IMG/VR virus record: IMGVR_UViG_3300036846_000310
Location: 1 to 44,411 of that record
DNA length: 44,411 bases
Source of the DNA: a virus
Strand: one strand, 5' to 3'
Part shown: piece by piece, positions 2,550 through 41,617 of the stretch
Numbering within the stretch: the stretch's first letter is position 1
Layout of the letters: each line of letters begins with the position of its first letter
The notes under the pieces: model-generated
Database searches by the model: none
The model's input: only the letters and a program-made list of their open reading frames with translations
What the model was told of the DNA's origin: nothing
Program-made: the position numbers and the translations under genes

Positions 2550-3013
2550 CCGAGGTATCACCCGCCAGGCTCATGCGGGCCATGAGTGCTGTCGGGCAAC
2601 TCAAAGAGCAGCTCGCAGGCCACGACGATGCCGACATATTGGCCTCGATCGAGAGTGAGACGAACGCCCTTGAACTGATGGACCGACTTATCGAGGCTGT
2701 CGTTGCCGACGAGGCGCTCGTCGAAATGGGCACCGACAGGCTCAGGCGGATCGAGGCGCGCGCCAATAAGCGGCGGGCGATCCTGGCGCGCATGATGGAA
2801 GAAATCGGCGAGCGGATCGAGCGACCGGCGGCAACGCTCTCCATCGGCGCCGGGCGGCAGAGAGCCATCATCACCGACGAGAAGGCTGTGCCTGAAACGT
2901 ATTTCCGAAGCGCCGTGGACAAGATGGAGTTGCTTCGCGCTCTCAAGGACGGCCCTGTGCCCGGCGCAGAGATTTCCAACGGGCCGGCCGTACTGCGGAT
3001 CTCAACTCGATGA
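2546..3013 (+). CDS. Siphovirus Gp157-family protein
   Basis: 155 residues with the Gp157 layout: an N-terminal helical segment, a long charged coiled coil (residues about 40-90), and the C-terminal signature TLSIGAGRQRAIITDEKAVP, then a lysine-containing helix and PGAEI...LRI. Gp157 proteins usually sit beside phage single-strand annealing and recombination genes, as here before the RecT-like gene. Their biochemical role is not firmly known; one early report linked the prototype to phage resistance. ATGA overlaps on both sides place it within one coupled operon. Confidence 0.8.
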   Translation: MTEVSPARLMRAMSAVGQLKEQLAGHDDADILASIESETNALELMDRLIEAVVADEALVEMGTDRLRRIEARANKRRAILARMMEEIGERIERPAATLSIGAGRQRAIITDEKAVPETYFRSAVDKMELLRALKDGPVPGAEISNGPAVLRISTR

Positions 3014-3549
3014 CGCGCGGCAGAATAAGCGCCGTTTGCGCTCAATGCGGGACGGAGTTCACGCGAATAGCCCACCGCATTAAGTCTGGCCAACGGTATT
3101 GTTCGCCAAGCTGTAATTACGCTGCAAAAAGAACAACAGCGGAGCAGGCGTTCAATAGCATTGTCAGGAAGACAGCAGACCCGGCTGCGTGTTGGGAATG
3201 GGTTGGCGGCACAACCAGCATAGGCTACGGCGCAGTGCGGAACACCACCGCTCATCGCATTTCCTACCGAATTCACATCGGCCCGATCCCTGTTGGGATG
3301 TTCGTCTGCCATACCTGCGATAATCCGCCATGCTGTAATCCCGCTCATCTGTTTCTTGGCACCCCTGCCGAAAACGTGGCCGATATGGAGGCCAAAGGTC
3401 GCAGGCGGGTTAAACTTTCCAAGGAAACTGTTCTCTTAATTCGCGCATCTTCCGTCCCCTCCGGCTCTGTGTTGGGGAAACGGTATGGCGTCTCGAAACA
3501 CCACATAAACCGCATCCGACGTGGCTTGGCTTGGAGATCTATCCCATGA
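3010..3549 (+). CDS. HNH homing-type endonuclease between Gp157 and the RecT-like gene
   Basis: 179 residues. The N-terminus has a Cys4-type finger (CAQCGTEF, then YCSPSC). The centre carries the HNH_3-like motif VCHTCDNPPCCNPAHLFLGT followed by PAENVADMEAKGR. The C-terminus ends in a small helix-turn-helix (VLGKRYGVSKHHINRIRRG), typical of free-standing phage homing endonucleases. Local base composition is less GC-rich than its neighbours. It overlaps both neighbours by ATGA, so it is well adapted to the operon. Likely a selfish element, not essential. Confidence 0.85.
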   Translation: MTRGRISAVCAQCGTEFTRIAHRIKSGQRYCSPSCNYAAKRTTAEQAFNSIVRKTADPAACWEWVGGTTSIGYGAVRNTTAHRISYRIHIGPIPVGMFVCHTCDNPPCCNPAHLFLGTPAENVADMEAKGRRRVKLSKETVLLIRASSVPSGSVLGKRYGVSKHHINRIRRGLAWRSIP

Positions 3550-7563: not shown

Positions 7564-8241
7564 ATGGAGGAGATTGCCGCATTCGTGGCTGACATCGACG
7601 GCCTTGACGCCCAGATCGAGCTTTTAGAGAAGCAGAAAAGCGAACGGCTAGAGGCTTTAGCCATTGCGGCGCGGGAGGCTTACGCCAAACGGAGCGTCGA
7701 AGCAGTCAATGCGATGTTTAACAAACTATATTGGTCGCTCATGAGCTTGCCTCCGTCATCGTTGGCCAAAGCATTTGGCCGCCACCTGAACTCATTTAAG
7801 ATCGAGCCGATATGGACCGGCATCCGATGCATGGCCTGCGACAAAGAGTTGGCGGCTGATAGCCGAACCAGGCTTTACCACATACATGCCTTGGCGCGTG
7901 ATGGGGCTTGCCTATGCCAACCATGCCAGCAATCTCGGAACGGCCGCACCCCTGACAACAAAGCAGAATGGTGGAGGCGTCAGAACGAGCTTAGGTCAAT
8001 GCCATATGGCGAATATCTTAGAACTCCAGAATGGCAAGATACCAGAAAGAGGGCCGTCGCCAGAGCGGCGTGGCGCTGTCAACTGTGCAACGTCAGCGGC
8101 AACGATGAGGGAATTGTTCTACAGGTCCATCATCGGACCTATGAGAACCGAGGCAGGGAATTAGCAGGCGACCTTACCGTTCTATGCAAGCCATGCCACG
8201 GGAGACATCATCGCCACTTCAGCGCCGAGGCCCCGCCATGA
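7564..8241 (+). CDS. HNH endonuclease with N-terminal coiled coil
   Basis: 225 residues. An N-terminal coiled coil (residues 1-45) is followed by a Cys4 pair (CMAC near 89 and CQPC near 116) and a C-terminal HNH domain: LRTPEWQDTRKRAVARAAWR, CQLC, then LQVHHRTYENRGRELAGDLT and VLCKPCHGRHH. The start follows AAAGGGA at 7550-7556. The nuclease fold is clear. A homing enzyme is likely; a DNA-maturation role is possible. The last codons overlap the next ATG. Confidence 0.85.
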   Translation: MEEIAAFVADIDGLDAQIELLEKQKSERLEALAIAAREAYAKRSVEAVNAMFNKLYWSLMSLPPSSLAKAFGRHLNSFKIEPIWTGIRCMACDKELAADSRTRLYHIHALARDGACLCQPCQQSRNGRTPDNKAEWWRRQNELRSMPYGEYLRTPEWQDTRKRAVARAAWRCQLCNVSGNDEGIVLQVHHRTYENRGRELAGDLTVLCKPCHGRHHRHFSAEAPP

Positions 8242-13623: not shown

Positions 13624-14544
13624 CTATCTCCATCGCACGTAGACCGGCTGGCCGTCGGCCGTCGGGATTGCGGGGGAAAAACCCATTACAGCCTGAAACT
13701 TGCACCACTTCGCACGGTCGCCGTCGTGCGGCTTGTCGGCCGTCGTGAACACCGGCCCGCCATGCAGCGCCATGATGACATCGCGGTCGCGTTGCAGATC
13801 CCGCATCACCCGCGCGTTCCACCGCTGCACCTCGACGTGGAAAAAAGTCTGGCCGCTGACGTTCTCCATGCCGAGCGTGTAGTCGCGCCGCCGCGCCACC
13901 GGCACGATGCGGTTCCACCGCGGCACCTCGAACGCGCGTTTCCCCCGCAGGATGGCAACGGTGCGCGCCTTCTCGGTCGCCGCCGCCTCGGCGATCTGCC
14001 GGCCATAGGCCCTGAAATACTCCATCATCCACGGCAGGCTCGTCTGCAGGTTCAGCGCCGCCATTGCGCGCCACCACGCCGGATCGTGCGGCATCCCGAG
14101 GCAGTGCTCGAACACCCTGGCGCACCCGGCCTCGCCCTCGAGGTCGGCAAACGGCACCGACAGCGCGCCGGGCCACCTCACCGCGATCTGGTCGAGTTTG
14201 GCGTCGAGCCGGCGCAGCGAGCGCGCGAGCGTCGCGGCATCGAACGAGCCGAGGCGCATGACGGAGTTGAACACGTCAGCCGGATCGCGCCGCACCAACA
14301 TCACGCGCATCTCGGGTGCCAGCCGCCGCAGCGTGCGCCACCACGGCGCGGCCGCCGTCTCGGCGGTGCCGGTGTAGGGCATCGACAGCCACGAGCGCAC
14401 GTCCTCGATCGAGCGCACATGGCGGATCTCGTCGTGGCCACAGTTCCATGGGCCGTATGAGAGATAGCGCGACAACCAGAACGATCTGCTGCGCGGCAAC
14501 GACAGAATGACAAACGGCTGAGTATGAGCGCCTGTAGCACTCAT
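13624..14544 (-). CDS. Sulfotransferase-like protein with a possible GNAT-like C-terminus
   Basis: 306 residues; ATG 14544 has GGAG five bases upstream. The N-terminal part shows a PAPS-binding-like loop (VILSLPRSRSFWLS, residues 12-25) and a 3'-phosphate-binding-like segment (VMLVRRDPADVFNSV, residues 81-95), as in phage and bacterial sulfotransferases. The C-terminal ~100 residues (QTFFHVEVQRWNARVMRDLQ and WCKFQAVMGF) resemble the GNAT-like fold of T7 gp13-type proteins. It may modify a surface polysaccharide or a virion component. The coding region for residues 34-45 is the match of the adjacent CRISPR spacer. Confidence 0.65.
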   Translation of the reverse strand: MSATGAHTQPFVILSLPRSRSFWLSRYLSYGPWNCGHDEIRHVRSIEDVRSWLSMPYTGTAETAAAPWWRTLRRLAPEMRVMLVRRDPADVFNSVMRLGSFDAATLARSLRRLDAKLDQIAVRWPGALSVPFADLEGEAGCARVFEHCLGMPHDPAWWRAMAALNLQTSLPWMMEYFRAYGRQIAEAAATEKARTVAILRGKRAFEVPRWNRIVPVARRRDYTLGMENVSGQTFFHVEVQRWNARVMRDLQRDRDVIMALHGGPVFTTADKPHDGDRAKWCKFQAVMGFSPAIPTADGQPVYVRWR

Positions 14545-14583: not shown

Positions 14584-14673
14584 GCGTTCCCTGCACTGGC
14601 TGGGATGACCCGTCGCGCACATGGCGGATCTCGTCGTGGCCGCATTGTTCCCTGCGTCAGCGGGGATGAACCG
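14584..14673 (+). CRISPR. Mini-CRISPR: two type I-E-like repeats and one 32-nt spacer
   Basis: Repeat 2 (14645-14673) contains GTTCCCTGCGTCAGCGGGGA then TGAACCG and matches the E. coli type I-E repeat at about 24-25 of 29 bases, with the stem CCCTGC/GCGGGG. Repeat 1 (14584-14612) is degenerate, 21 of 29 identical to repeat 2, with one stem mismatch. The spacer is exactly 32 nt (14613-14644), the I-E standard, giving the 61-nt period. It matches 14411-14442 in the adjacent sulfotransferase-like gene at 29 of 32 bases; the mismatches are spacer positions 1, 2 and 30. The array fills most of the 136-bp intergenic gap. No cas gene or clear leader is present. Confidence 0.75.
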
Positions 14674-24352: not shown

Positions 24353-25111
24353 TTATGATCCCGGAACCACCACGCTCTGGTGCGGCCCGACGACGCCGCT
24401 GATCCCGCCCTGGCCCGGCATCTGCGGCACCAGCGCGCCCGGCACATGCAGTTGCGCAACATGCGCGTTCGCCGCGCGGATCGTCGCCTTGACCCCCGTC
24501 ATCGCCGCGACGTGGCCCGCGTTCGCCGGCAGGCCGTAGTCCAACTGAACCATCACCGCCAGCTCATAGCGCGCCGCGCGGATATACTCGGGCGGCAGGT
24601 TCAGCGGATCGGTCAGCGCGGTGTAGGTCGGCAGTCCGGCGCGGTAGAAAACATGCAGGTCGAACTGACCGGACGGTGGCACCGGCCAGAAGTAGGCGCT
24701 CGAGGTCGGGAAGTCGGGCGACAGCCACACCGCGGCCGGAAACGTGGTGAGTTGCTTCACGCCGATCTCGTTGTATTCGTCGGCGCTGTCGATCAGGTAG
24801 AGCGGGAAATCCACCGGCCCGGCGTTGTTGATCCCCGCGATCTGCTGGCCGGTGAGCAGCCGCGCGTAGGCACTATCGAGCCGCGGCGGGCGGTCCTTCA
24901 GCGGGTAGAACTGCGCCCCCGTGCTCGGGAATATCTCCTCCACCAGCCGCCATGCCAGGAACCGCTCGCGCTGCCAGTTGCCGATCATCTCGACGAGTAG
25001 CTGGAAGCCAGTCGTGGCATCTTCCGCTTGGGCGGTCTGTCCTATCCCGAGCACGGATGACGTGCGTAAAACCGCAGTAATAAGGTCCTGACACGTCCGA
25101 ATTACCGGCAT
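24353..25111 (-). CDS. P22 gp4-like tail accessory (head completion) protein
   Basis: 252 residues. The N-terminal helices (CQDLITAVLRTSSVLGIGQT, AEDATTGFQLLVEMIGNWQR) match gp4-type accessory factors, which extend the portal. The middle is a beta domain (FYPLKDRPPRLDSAYARLLT) and the C-terminal helix includes RYELAVMVQLDYGLPA. The start overlaps the HNH stop (TAATG), which means an endonuclease gene has settled exactly at its 5' end. Confidence 0.75.
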   Translation of the reverse strand: MPVIRTCQDLITAVLRTSSVLGIGQTAQAEDATTGFQLLVEMIGNWQRERFLAWRLVEEIFPSTGAQFYPLKDRPPRLDSAYARLLTGQQIAGINNAGPVDFPLYLIDSADEYNEIGVKQLTTFPAAVWLSPDFPTSSAYFWPVPPSGQFDLHVFYRAGLPTYTALTDPLNLPPEYIRAARYELAVMVQLDYGLPANAGHVAAMTGVKATIRAANAHVAQLHVPGALVPQMPGQGGISGVVGPHQSVVVPGS

Positions 25112-25791
25112 TATACATGTCTCCAGATACGGCCTTTACGCACATAGCTGATTGTCGTCTGCGAGACATTTAGCAGTTTCGCGAGAGCGGCGCCCGTAGC
25201 TTTGCTGCGACGGATCATCCTGACATTCGCCTCGGTCAGCTTAGCCAGTCCGTTCTGCTCGCCTCTAGCCTGTGCGTTAACGCGGCGGCCCTTAGCATCC
25301 ATATCGGCGTTGTTCTCTGCCTTAGTGCCAAGCCACAGATGATCTGGATTGACGCACGCCGGATTGTCGCAGCGGTGGAGCACGAACAACCCATCCGGGA
25401 TCTCGCCGTGCGCCAATGTCCATGCTGTGCGATGGGCCATCGTGCTGGTGCCAGGCTTTTGAAATATGCCGTAGCCCTTCAGGTTCCTGCCGCCAGTCCA
25501 CTCCCAGCACCCCGGCCCGCGCGTCACAAAGATATTGAACCGCTCCTCTGTGGTCAGACCGTGATGCTGCGTCTGCACGACGATTGTCGGGTCACCGTGG
25601 CGCACCCACGCCTGATAGTGTCGATCGCACAGGCCGCGCGCGTCATGCACCCGGCCGCATCCCTTGACCGTGCATAGCTTGGTGCCGCGCTTGCCATGAC
25701 CGGCCTCGCGAAGCGCCCGGTTCGCGGCAATCTGCTCGCGATGGGCGATCTGATACGCCTTGTTGTAGGCGCGCTTTTCCTGCTTGTTCAT
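25111..25791 (-). CDS. HNH homing endonuclease upstream of the gp4-like gene
   Basis: 226 residues. A Cys/His finger (CTVKGCGRVHDARGLCDRHY) precedes the catalytic core: CWEWTGGRNLKGYG, LFVLHRCDNPACVNPDHLWL, GTKAENNADMDAKGR. The C-terminus ends in a helix-turn-helix (LAKLLNVSQTTISYVRKGRI), the usual target-recognition tail. It lies on the coding strand between the 168-residue gene and gp4, with TAATG coupling to gp4, so it need not disrupt expression. Confidence 0.9.
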   Translation of the reverse strand: MNKQEKRAYNKAYQIAHREQIAANRALREAGHGKRGTKLCTVKGCGRVHDARGLCDRHYQAWVRHGDPTIVVQTQHHGLTTEERFNIFVTRGPGCWEWTGGRNLKGYGIFQKPGTSTMAHRTAWTLAHGEIPDGLFVLHRCDNPACVNPDHLWLGTKAENNADMDAKGRRVNAQARGEQNGLAKLTEANVRMIRRSKATGAALAKLLNVSQTTISYVRKGRIWRHV

Positions 25792-38536: not shown

Positions 38537-38706
38537 GACACACCTCCCTTGTCTGGACCCAAGAGGTGTGCGAAAAGGAGTTTGCTCGTGCTCCTTCTCG
38601 ACGCCCCCCGGCGTCCGGTGGAAACAAATACAGACCCGTCAGCGTCCTCATAACGCTGGCGGGTTTCGCTGTTATGCGCCTGAGAAATGAGTCGAGCAAC
38701 GCTCAT
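38533..38706 (-). CDS. 57-residue gene rich in RNA hairpins
   Basis: ATG 38706 overlaps the previous stop; TTGA links it to the DnaA-domain gene. The product is a basic, Ser/Arg-rich peptide (SVARLISQAHNSETRQRYED onward) with no recognised domain. Within its 174 bases lie three stable stems: 38634-38645 with 38653-38664, 38600-38605 with 38610-38615, and 38539-38546 with 38563-38570. The segment may act mainly as a regulatory RNA upstream of the DnaA-domain gene. Confidence 0.45.
   Translation of the reverse strand: MSVARLISQAHNSETRQRYEDADGSVFVSTGRRGASRRSTSKLLFAHLLGPDKGGVS
38539..38570 (-). promoter_or_regulatory. Hairpin covering the ribosome site of the DnaA-domain gene
   Basis: CACACCTC (38539-38546) pairs with GAGGTGTG (38563-38570). 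Read on the minus strand, the second arm contains GGGAGGTG, the only good ribosome site for the TTG at 38536. Folding would hide it unless ribosomes translating the 57-residue ORF open the stem, a translational-coupling switch. Confidence 0.5.
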
Positions 38707-39470
38707 GCCGCCGCGTCCTCGAACAGCGAGAACTGCCGGTCGAACACGTCCGGCCTGGCATGCACCGTGCCGCTGAACACCGAGATCACCAGCCACGAAT
38801 TGCGGAAGCGATTAAGATTGCCGCACAGAAGCGGTGGCGCCGTGGTCAGGTTCAGCGCCTCGCCCAGCGATAGCGCAGCCTCATCGCCGTGCTTGCGCAT
38901 CAGCTCGTAGCAGCCCCAATCCCGCAGCATTAGGTCGTGCCGGCCGCCCGCCTCGTCGATAAAGCGCAATCGCGGATGCCACCGGAACCGGCACGCCACC
39001 GACAACTCAGGCACGTCGCCGAACATATCCGGCGTCGGCGCCATCTCGGCGGTCTCGCCACGCTCGAGGTCGAGCTTAGGCAACTCAGTCGGTGCGATGA
39101 CACAGAGTGACAGCCGCCGCTCATTCGCCTGGGCGAGCGACGGCACCAGCAGGTCGCCGACGATCTCACGCTGTATGGCAGGCGCGATCTTGTCCTGCAC
39201 GCGGGCAATAACCCGGTTGATTTCCTCGTGCGCGCCCGGGCGCCGATCGCCACGGATCTTCCAGCTTTCTGCACGGCTGTCTTTGCCGTTGCGCTCCACC
39301 GGAATGCGCGACACCGACCAGCGTGGCGGCGAGCCGCGACGCGCCATCGGATAGATGCGAACCGGCTGCCGCAATTCGAGGCTATAACCGGCCGTGCATA
39401 CGAACTGCCGTCCGTCGCTGTTGGCTTCAGGCACCGTCTTGCCCAGCATGACGAAATCGTCGAGGGTCAT
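38703..39470 (-). CDS. Hypothetical phage protein (255 aa)
   Basis: ATG 39470 overlaps the previous stop. The N-terminal part has conserved-looking motifs (FVCTAGYSLELRQPVRIYPM, PPRWSVSRIPVERN, DSRAESWKIRG). The middle is a helix-beta region and the C-terminal ~50 residues include LLCGNLNRFRNSWLVISVFS. The first motifs look like a nucleotide- or nucleic-acid-binding fold, but no family name can be supported. It lies beside a DUF4326-containing protein, a pairing I believe recurs in phages. Confidence 0.55.
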   Translation of the reverse strand: MTLDDFVMLGKTVPEANSDGRQFVCTAGYSLELRQPVRIYPMARRGSPPRWSVSRIPVERNGKDSRAESWKIRGDRRPGAHEEINRVIARVQDKIAPAIQREIVGDLLVPSLAQANERRLSLCVIAPTELPKLDLERGETAEMAPTPDMFGDVPELSVACRFRWHPRLRFIDEAGGRHDLMLRDWGCYELMRKHGDEAALSLGEALNLTTAPPLLCGNLNRFRNSWLVISVFSGTVHARPDVFDRQFSLFEDAAA

Positions 39471-40195
39471 CCTTCCGCCCCCGCTAACTGGTCGGCGATC
39501 TCCTCCGCGCTGCCGTTGCCGCGCGCCTCCTGATTGACAATCTCCGCGATGATGTGGCCGTGGCATTGCTCGGGATGGCACCAGCAGCCGAGCACCTTGC
39601 CGCGCAACGTCGGTATAGTGCGCAACAGCGCCGCTTTGTGAGGCAGATAGAAACGCTCGAATAACGTGCAGACGGTATCGCGGTCGCCGTCGTCCGGCAT
39701 CTCAAACGGATTGCCCCAATCGGTCTTGCGGTCAATGCGCTCGTAACGGCTAGTCTCCTGCGCCCAGCCGATCAGCGCCTCGTCGAAGCCATCGCGCATA
39801 TTGGCGACAACGCATTCACCGGCCTCAGCCAAATCCCTGCGCGCAAGCTGGTCGTCCGTCCATATCGCCGCGGCAGCAGCCGATCCCTCGGACCTTTCCC
39901 GCGCTGCCTTCAACGCGCCGATCTGTCCCGCTTCCGCAATATCCGCTATCGATAGCGTCCGTTCTTCTACTGCATTGAATAGCTGTATATACCGCCTCGC
40001 CGTGCTCCACGGTACGCCGGCTTCTTGCTCGACCCAGCGTTCCCAGCCGCCACGCGGGATGCTCTCATCCGCTTTGGCCTCGGCAAGCCAGCGCCCGGCT
40101 TCAACGGCGCGCTCTGCCAGGTTCTCACTGGCACCTCGGACATCGTTGTGCGCCATACGGATTTCCGCCGCGAGCACTGTCAGACGATTGCTCAT
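39467..40195 (-). CDS. DUF3102-DUF4326 fusion protein
   Basis: 242 residues. Residues 1-75 fit DUF3102: AAEIRMAHNDVRGASENLAE, RAVEAGRWLAEAKADES, WVEQEAGVPWSTARRYIQLF, a phage helical domain. Residues about 155-230 fit DUF4326: YERIDRKTDWGNPFEMPDDG, then LFERFYLPHKAALLRTIPTL, RGKVLGCWCHPEQCHG with the CWC...CHG metal-binding motif. Both domains are of unknown function. ATGA overlaps on both sides. Confidence 0.75.
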   Translation of the reverse strand: MSNRLTVLAAEIRMAHNDVRGASENLAERAVEAGRWLAEAKADESIPRGGWERWVEQEAGVPWSTARRYIQLFNAVEERTLSIADIAEAGQIGALKAARERSEGSAAAAAIWTDDQLARRDLAEAGECVVANMRDGFDEALIGWAQETSRYERIDRKTDWGNPFEMPDDGDRDTVCTLFERFYLPHKAALLRTIPTLRGKVLGCWCHPEQCHGHIIAEIVNQEARGNGSAEEIADQLAGAEG

Positions 40196-40479
40196 CCCGC
40201 CACCTCGCTGAACACCAACTCGCCGCCGTGCCGCGGCCCGCTCACGTCCCACCACCCCGCGAACTCGGCCACGCGACCGCGATAGCACTCGCCCTCCGCG
40301 ATCAGGTGCCCGACGCCCACGAGGAACGTCCCGCAATCCCACAGGCTGACATCCAGCGCGCCGATGCCGCGCCGCGCCCGGACGGTGACCACCAGCTCGC
40401 CGCGCACCAGCTCGCCCTCCGACGTGCCCTCGCCGGTCGGACGCATGACGACGCGGTGCGTGGCGATGGTGGCGCTCAC
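40192..40479 (-). CDS. Hypothetical beta-rich protein (95 aa)
   Basis: The sequence alternates strands (ELVRGELVVTVRARRGIGAL, then FLVGVGHLIAEGECYRGRVA) and ends with a hydrophobic WWDVSG segment. ATGA overlaps link it to the C5 methyltransferase and the DUF3102 gene. No family is recognised. Confidence 0.5.
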   Translation of the reverse strand: MSATIATHRVVMRPTGEGTSEGELVRGELVVTVRARRGIGALDVSLWDCGTFLVGVGHLIAEGECYRGRVAEFAGWWDVSGPRHGGELVFSEVAG

Positions 40480-41219
40480 GACCCCGCCTCCGCGCGCAGG
40501 ATCGCCTCGCCGATAAGCTGGGGAATGTGCGGGATCAGGCTGTTGCCTATGGCTCGATTGCGCTCCATCCCGAAGGCAACGCCATCAGCGCCTCCGTAAA
40601 GCGCGGATGGATCTTCCAGCCATGCTCCCCAACCAGCGCGTGAACGCGCGAGACAGTCGATTGCCTGTATCGCCCGCTGCGATTGTGAAGCGGTATGCCG
40701 AACCCCCGCCCGTCCATGCTCGCCGTCGGGGTAGGCCACAACGAACACCCGCTGTCGCATGTGTGGGGCACCCATTGAGCACGCCGATACAACCGACCAC
40801 TCCGCATCGAACCCGCGCTCGGAAAGGTCGCGGAGAACTGCTCCCAGTTCCCCGTCAAGCAGGGCTGGGACGTTCTCCACCAGCGCGTATCCGGGTCGTA
40901 GCTCGCGAATAAGTCGTGCGAACTCGGACCAAAGACCTGAACGATCGCCGGCCAGGCCCCGTCCAGTTCCGGCGCGAGACAGGTCCTGGCAGGGAAATCC
41001 GCCACAAATGACATCGACGCCGATGCCATCAGCGGCAAGCCGCGCTGCCGTGAGGGATCGAACGTCGTCATAGATCGGCACTCCTGGCCAATGTTTCGCT
41101 AGGATGCGGCGGGGGAACGGCTCGCACTCGCAGAAGGCGACGGTGCGGAAGCCGCCGGTGCGTTCCAACCCGAGGCTGAAGGCACCCAAGCCGCTAAAGA
41201 GATCGAGCACGCGCATCAT
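40476..41219 (-). CDS. DNA cytosine-5 methyltransferase
   Basis: 247 residues from ATG 41219. Motifs in order: I DLFSGLGAFSLGLE (6-19), IV GGFPCQDLS with catalytic Cys77, VI ENVPALL (116-122), VIII RQRVFVVAYP (155-164), X GNSLIPHIPQLIGEAI. The target-recognition region is very short (about 50 residues). It may protect phage DNA from restriction. No partner restriction enzyme is seen nearby apart from the VRR-NUC nuclease downstream in sequence but upstream in transcription. Confidence 0.9.
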   Translation of the reverse strand: MMRVLDLFSGLGAFSLGLERTGGFRTVAFCECEPFPRRILAKHWPGVPIYDDVRSLTAARLAADGIGVDVICGGFPCQDLSRAGTGRGLAGDRSGLWSEFARLIRELRPGYALVENVPALLDGELGAVLRDLSERGFDAEWSVVSACSMGAPHMRQRVFVVAYPDGEHGRAGVRHTASQSQRAIQAIDCLARSRAGWGAWLEDPSALYGGADGVAFGMERNRAIGNSLIPHIPQLIGEAILRAEAGS

Positions 41220-41617
41220 GCCGCCACCGATGCCCGCAGCGGTACGCCACATTCGCGCAGGGATGCCTCAACCTGGCCAAGCGACCGGCACAGCATGACC
41301 TCGGCGCCGCAATAGATCAGTTTGCGCGCAACTGACCGCTGCGCCGGCGACTGCGTGCCCTTGGGGGCCTTCAGTTCAATGAACGCCGCGCGTCCGCGAT
41401 GAACGACCAGCAGATCCGGCGCACCTCGCAGGACACCGAGACCCGCAAGCCGCGCCGCGGCTTTCTTCGAGCGCAGGCCGCCGTTGGGGATGTGCATGAA
41501 GCAGGCGTCCGACGGCAGCGCCAACGCCAGGAACTTGCAGACATCGCGCTGCAAATCATCCTCGACGTGCCGCCGCACCACCGTCCGCTGCGGCAGCAGG
41601 TCCAGCGCCGCGCTCAT
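41216..41617 (-). CDS. VRR-NUC domain nuclease
   Basis: 133 residues. The core is the PD-(D/E)xK-type VRR-NUC fold: a leading helix (VVRRHVEDDLQRDVCKFLAL), then FMHIPNGGLRS, GAPDLLVVHRGRAAFIELKA with the D and ExK catalytic set, and SPAQRSVARKLIYCGAEVML. Phage versions are Holliday-junction or flap nucleases. ATGA overlaps link it to gcrA and the C5 methyltransferase. Confidence 0.9.
   Translation of the reverse strand: MSAALDLLPQRTVVRRHVEDDLQRDVCKFLALALPSDACFMHIPNGGLRSKKAAARLAGLGVLRGAPDLLVVHRGRAAFIELKAPKGTQSPAQRSVARKLIYCGAEVMLCRSLGQVEASLRECGVPLRASVAA

Follow-up and report, generated by a model that had tools for sequence, protein, structure and literature searches.

The window analysed here, a 44,411-base IMG/VR virus record whose portal, terminase and head genes resemble those of P22, probably carries a phage-borne type I-E mini-CRISPR array that would act against sibling phages through the host's Cascade, with an escape allele of the targeted gene adjoining the array. 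This best reading rests, for the window, on the anatomy of the array and on a parallel group of phages, the L010 group. The kind is already known, and the window would be a further case of virus mini-arrays aimed at relatives. Support from other phages comprises perfect targets in siblings, escape alleles in carriers, adjacency of array and target, spacer turnover, and polymorphism between arrays and solitary repeats.

Structure of the array

The array is a type I-E-like repeat-spacer-repeat unit of 29, 32 and 29 nt, positioned inside a 136-bp gap at 14584-14673, where a sequence-only reading of this DNA had placed it. On the plus strand it consists of the upstream repeat R1 (14584-14612, 29 nt, GCGTTCCCTGCACTGGCTGGGATGACCCG), the spacer (14613-14644, 32 nt, TCGCGCACATGGCGGATCTCGTCGTGGCCGCA) and the repeat R2 (14645-14673, 29 nt, TTGTTCCCTGCGTCAGCGGGGATGAACCG). 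Compared with the E. coli I-E repeat, identity was 24/29 for R2 and 21/29 for R1, in keeping with the earlier description of one E. coli-like and one degenerate copy. A degenerate I-E repeat pattern had two sites only in the window, R1 and R2; shuffled sequences had a mean of 0.03 sites, and two sites were seen in 0/100 shuffles.

The better-preserved R2 has an intact hairpin with one G-U pair in the stem and a folding energy of -12.9 kcal/mol (z -2.8), compared to -14.4 for a canonical repeat. The R1 fold reached -8.1 kcal/mol, with one stem pair broken. Because R1 is degenerate, the array may be decaying. R1 would provide the crRNA 5' handle ATGACCCG, and its 3' ending GATGACCCG is also present in the intact repeats of the phage arrays L010, L017, L035 and L050.

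Both flanking genes lie on the minus strand, and the crRNA strand (+) runs antisense to them. The sulfotransferase-like gene P0001 (13624-14544, 306 aa) starts 39 nt from R1; its match to Sulfotransfer_3 had an E-value of 7.5e-4, below the family cut-off. The upstream gene P0002 (14681-15952, 423 aa), for which no family match was found, has its stop codon 7 nt from R2. No leader was recognised for the array, and a consensus scan, which other promoter kinds would escape, gave no sigma-70-type promoter nearby. A PADLOC scan of 20 window ORFs gave no convincing match to Cas genes, the single weak one being to Cmr5 (E 0.008). The array thus has one spacer between CRISPR repeats, with no cas gene recognised in these 20 ORFs.

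The near-protospacer in the adjoining gene

The spacer matches positions 14411-14442 (+) within P0001 at 29/32, differing at spacer positions 1, 2 and 30, which reproduces the alignment of the sequence-only reading. The best of 300 Markov-resampled spacers did not exceed 25/32 anywhere in the 44-kb window. The likeness between array and gene ends at the spacer borders, except for a short GTTCC on the 3' side that is offset by two bases. Mismatch 30 is indeed the silent TGT/TGC change noted earlier, and TGC is found in most of the 57 alleles compared.

In type I-E systems ATG is a usual PAM and ATC is not. The triplet in the PAM place of the own site (14408-14410, +) is ATC, as the sequence-only reading had it. 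One serine codon of the minus-strand gene, TCG at 14410-14412, takes in the last base of this triplet as well as spacer positions 1 and 2. The carrier's own site is thus altered against targeting, and with no usual I-E PAM and two seed mismatches the own copy is likely protected, as had been proposed. We predict that GAC (Asp) at 14410-14412 in a sibling would create a perfect PAM-side match together with the PAM ATG.

At the discriminating codon, the homologues mostly have serine, like the window; neither Asp nor Glu occurred in the 57-allele comparison. The perfect spacer match elsewhere that the sequence-only reading had looked to did not appear: no exact match to the 26-nt spacer core was found in IMG/VR or in GTDB genomes. 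Because of these two results, the differences at spacer positions 1 and 2 could instead have arisen by drift within the array. Homologues of P0001 were found at 56 viral loci, where no I-E-like repeat pairs were detected (weak matches with four mismatches only). A DNA search of the INPHARED phage collection gave no relatives of the window.

Proposed mechanism and cellular arrays with a similar repeat

Under the anti-sibling reading, the array would be transcribed in a type I-E host, whose Cas6e would cut the R2 hairpin, as well as R1 provided that the weaker hairpin there still functions. The crRNA, loaded into the host's Cascade, would then hit the sulfotransferase-like allele of a sibling beside an I-E PAM (the predicted GAC at 14410-14412, with ATG), and Cas3 would destroy the sibling genome in coinfection or superinfection. 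The carrier would be spared because its own allele lacks the PAM and the seed match, both through one codon.

The closest cellular I-E-type array that we found has a repeat matching R2 at 25/27 and is located in an Azoarcus-titled MAG, where the Cse1 profile had no match. Because this array exists, it cannot clearly be said that no similar array occurs in cells, the outcome that the sequence-only reading had held against itself. Against the window, the spacers of two MAGs with similar repeats scored at best about one base above shuffled spacers, and none of the examined cellular spacers matches the window phage. We also observed that three different phages, the window (R2, 14645-14673), L049 and L050/L059, have CCCTGCGTCAGCGGGGATG in common in their distal repeats, which may point to hosts whose CRISPR arrays are related.

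Comparable mini-arrays in viral genomes

A single scan of IMG/VR for I-E-like repeat-spacer-repeat units yielded 59 stretches. Each array of one to three spacers was judged by its best match to another place on the fetched locus, set against the matches of shuffled spacers. Nine independent arrays, the window included, had a near-match on their own contig above the shuffles: L022 (31/32), the window (29/32), L010 (28/32), L058 (27/32), L006 and L040 (26/32 each), L002 (25/34), L025 (24/32) and L049 (23/32). The last three exceeded the shuffle maxima (20 shuffles each) by two to three only and are the weaker cases.

The near-match site was at most 400 bp from the array in 8/9 cases, with a combined chance of such proximity of about 3e-6, as reckoned on the fetched locus lengths and for nine arrays whose choice was partly our own. 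Two arrays were left out: L051 has a match of 23/32 at a distance of 3.6 kb and its addition would give 8/10 arrays within 400 bp, while L016 was treated as a case of another type, since its self-match is perfect, lacks a PAM and lies at a distance of 1.55 kb.

The own sites differ in how they depart from a functional target. The best matches are flanked by a triplet that is no usual I-E PAM (ATC in the window, ACG in L022, CTT in L058). The own site of L010 retains the PAM and is changed at four seed positions. For L040, L025 and L002, the PAM and most seed positions are retained, with mismatches further along, and because of this a regulatory role may apply to these three. Searches for siblings of L022 and of L049 gave only themselves. 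The idea that the targets lie at start codons was true for L002, L010 and L049 and failed for L025 and the window.

A separate type of copy was seen in another set of loci. In L013, L016, L019, L028 and L032, an array interval copies a genomic site perfectly over 32-33 nt; L042 has the genomic copy. The copied site is the region around the ribosome-binding site and start codon of a gene that lies 1.55 kb off. It has no I-E PAM (TGA), and the crRNA would be antisense to the start.

Perfect targets and escape alleles in the L010 group

When 24 nt of the L010/L011 spacer were searched for, 15 contigs were returned. Spacer 2 of L010/L011 has a perfect 32/32 match with the PAM ATG in seven siblings (L050, L059, L122, L124, L125, L127 and L131). 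The target is situated where the gene downstream of the array begins; this gene encodes a major head protein (PHROG 1328, E 1e-62), and the one preceding the array a head scaffolding protein. In L010 and L011 themselves, the site is 299 bp from the array and has mismatches at positions 4, 5, 7 and 8. Here GAGATGGAC replaces GAGTAGACC, an escape allele that is also found in six contigs without an array at this place. The function against siblings suggested by the sequence-only reading thus gains support from seven siblings with perfect, PAM-flanked targets and from seed-mutant carriers.

L050 and L059 are potential targets, yet they bear their own arrays with other spacers nearby. At a second site, L050/L059 and L128/L129 have different spacers after a nearly identical repeat, a case of spacer turnover. 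The spacer of L128 matched siblings at up to 26/32, in some of them with ATG. In L010 and L011 the second site measures no more than some dozen bases and appears to be empty. The surroundings of the L010 target, compared in sliding steps, were mosaic in general, but too diffusely so to prove a clean converted tract.

Alternative explanations

The array might be a relic, a former anti-sibling mini-array that became inactive after decay of R1 and loss of the target allele. With a degenerate R1 and no recognised promoter, such a fate is conceivable, and we regard it as unlikely. The weakened R1 hairpin, the absence of a promoter consensus near the array and of an exact target from IMG/VR and GTDB genomes agree with it. 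However, the spacer is exactly 32 nt long with just three changes from the own gene, the R2 hairpin is intact, and the R1 handle ATGACCCG is found in intact phage repeats. Moreover, in CreTA, too, divergence is greater in the first repeat, which remains in use (PMC9458426).

It is considerably less probable that the crRNA is regulatory, as in CreTA or CreR, with Cascade binding the phage's own gene without cleavage and repressing it. Regulation of the own gene fails because the PAM and the seed match that it needs are absent from the own site, where the ATC and mismatches 1 and 2 should block Cascade binding. The target lies within the gene rather than at a promoter, and the perfect target of the L010 group is in siblings rather than in the carrier. 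These observations outweigh, in our judgement, that R1 is more degenerate than R2, as in CreTA (PMC9458426), that the target is just ~200 bp off, and that the self-sites of L040, L025 and L002 retain the PAM and most of the seed.

An RNA anti-CRISPR of the Racr kind, in which the repeats are decoys for the host's Cas proteins and the spacer is incidental, seems just as improbable. Racrs are known as phage-borne repeat mimics without cas genes (PMC10651486), and solitary repeats and mini-arrays do occur at the same sites in related phages (the L002 group and L142). Racrs are solitary repeat units, however, while the window has two repeats and a 32-nt spacer, and a decoy has no need of a spacer nearly matching the adjoining gene. 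The spacer does look like that gene, but chance resemblance or a local duplication of the gene can be dismissed with near certainty in view of two repeats at exact I-E spacing (0/100 shuffles), the 32-nt likeness bounded by the repeats, and the same architecture in unrelated phages.

Relation to known systems

Faure (2019) reportedly surveyed phage mini-arrays; those arrays and the arrays of SPV1 and SPV2 have one or two spacers, no cas genes and an intergenic position, and they resemble in this the one-spacer, intergenic array of the window, where no cas gene was recognised among the ORFs scanned. The spacers of SPV1 and SPV2 target related viruses near the position of the array, and the orthologous site of the carrier is mutated or deleted (PMC6858448). 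Medvedeva et al. (2019) described reciprocal targeting, altered own sites and, without an explanation, proximity (PMC6858448), and according to a review most mini-array spacers match similar viruses and not the carrier (PMC8616872). We counted these two papers and PMC11656645 in favour of the anti-sibling reading. On the other hand, the arrays of the SPV viruses come with host-like leaders and with repeats of the archaeal CRISPR-A type, whereas the window has I-E-like repeats, a degenerate R1 and no recognised leader, and its sibling target is absent from IMG/VR and GTDB genomes.

CreTA resembles the window in that a single spacer-like unit is flanked by two degenerate repeats, of which the first is more diverged, and in the use of the host's Cascade, as proposed for the window (PMC9458426). 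It differs in that CreA represses a toxin RNA; the near-target of the window is inside a coding gene, without a PAM, and we recognised no gene for a toxin. With Racr and solitary repeat units (PMC10651486) the window has in common phage-borne repeats, which may be host-like in the window too, without recognised cas genes; unlike them, it has a full repeat-spacer-repeat with a meaningful spacer.

Adjacency of array and target

Such cassettes usually adjoin the targeted gene, as seen in the nine I-E-like arrays compared, a pattern that earlier authors left unexplained. Free-standing homing endonucleases of phages, known from marker exclusion, are weapons encoded beside the locus that they attack in siblings, with a resistant allele in the carrier. 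By analogy, we put forward the speculative and, on present evidence, rather unlikely idea that an array with its adjoining escape allele is a natural homing or gene-drive-like element powered by host Cas proteins. A sibling would be cut beside the position of the array and repaired from the carrier, and array and escape allele would be copied and spread together. Such an element would differ from homing endonucleases in being RNA-guided via the host's Cas proteins. If true, homing would explain why phage mini-arrays adjoin the targeted gene. In a weaker version, adjacency may merely hold weapon and immunity linked under recombination. A literature search found no paper that proposes homing for mini-arrays, which is weak evidence of novelty. 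The proximity in nine arrays (eight within 400 bp), together with one sibling set that has perfect targets, escape alleles and empty sites, makes the choice between linkage and homing directly testable.

Solitary repeats and other observations

In L002, L037 and L046, one gene has a repeat-spacer-repeat before it and a single repeat after it. In the relative L142, the same gene has a single repeat before it and three repeats with two spacers after it. Because the arrangements are swapped, mini-arrays and solitary repeats share sites in related phages. This suggests that some solitary repeats of phages, usually read as anti-CRISPR RNAs, may be empty or collapsed mini-arrays. For the two L142 spacers, the compared loci offered no convincing target.

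Elsewhere in the window there are three HNH endonuclease-like genes, at 3010-3549 (+), 7564-8241 (+) and 25111-25791 (-), the first of which also matches a PADLOC homing-endonuclease model. A DNA cytosine methyltransferase-like gene is located at 40476-41252 (-), and the region 38703-39581 (-) matches the PADLOC candidate defence family PDC-M19B (E 1.3e-10).
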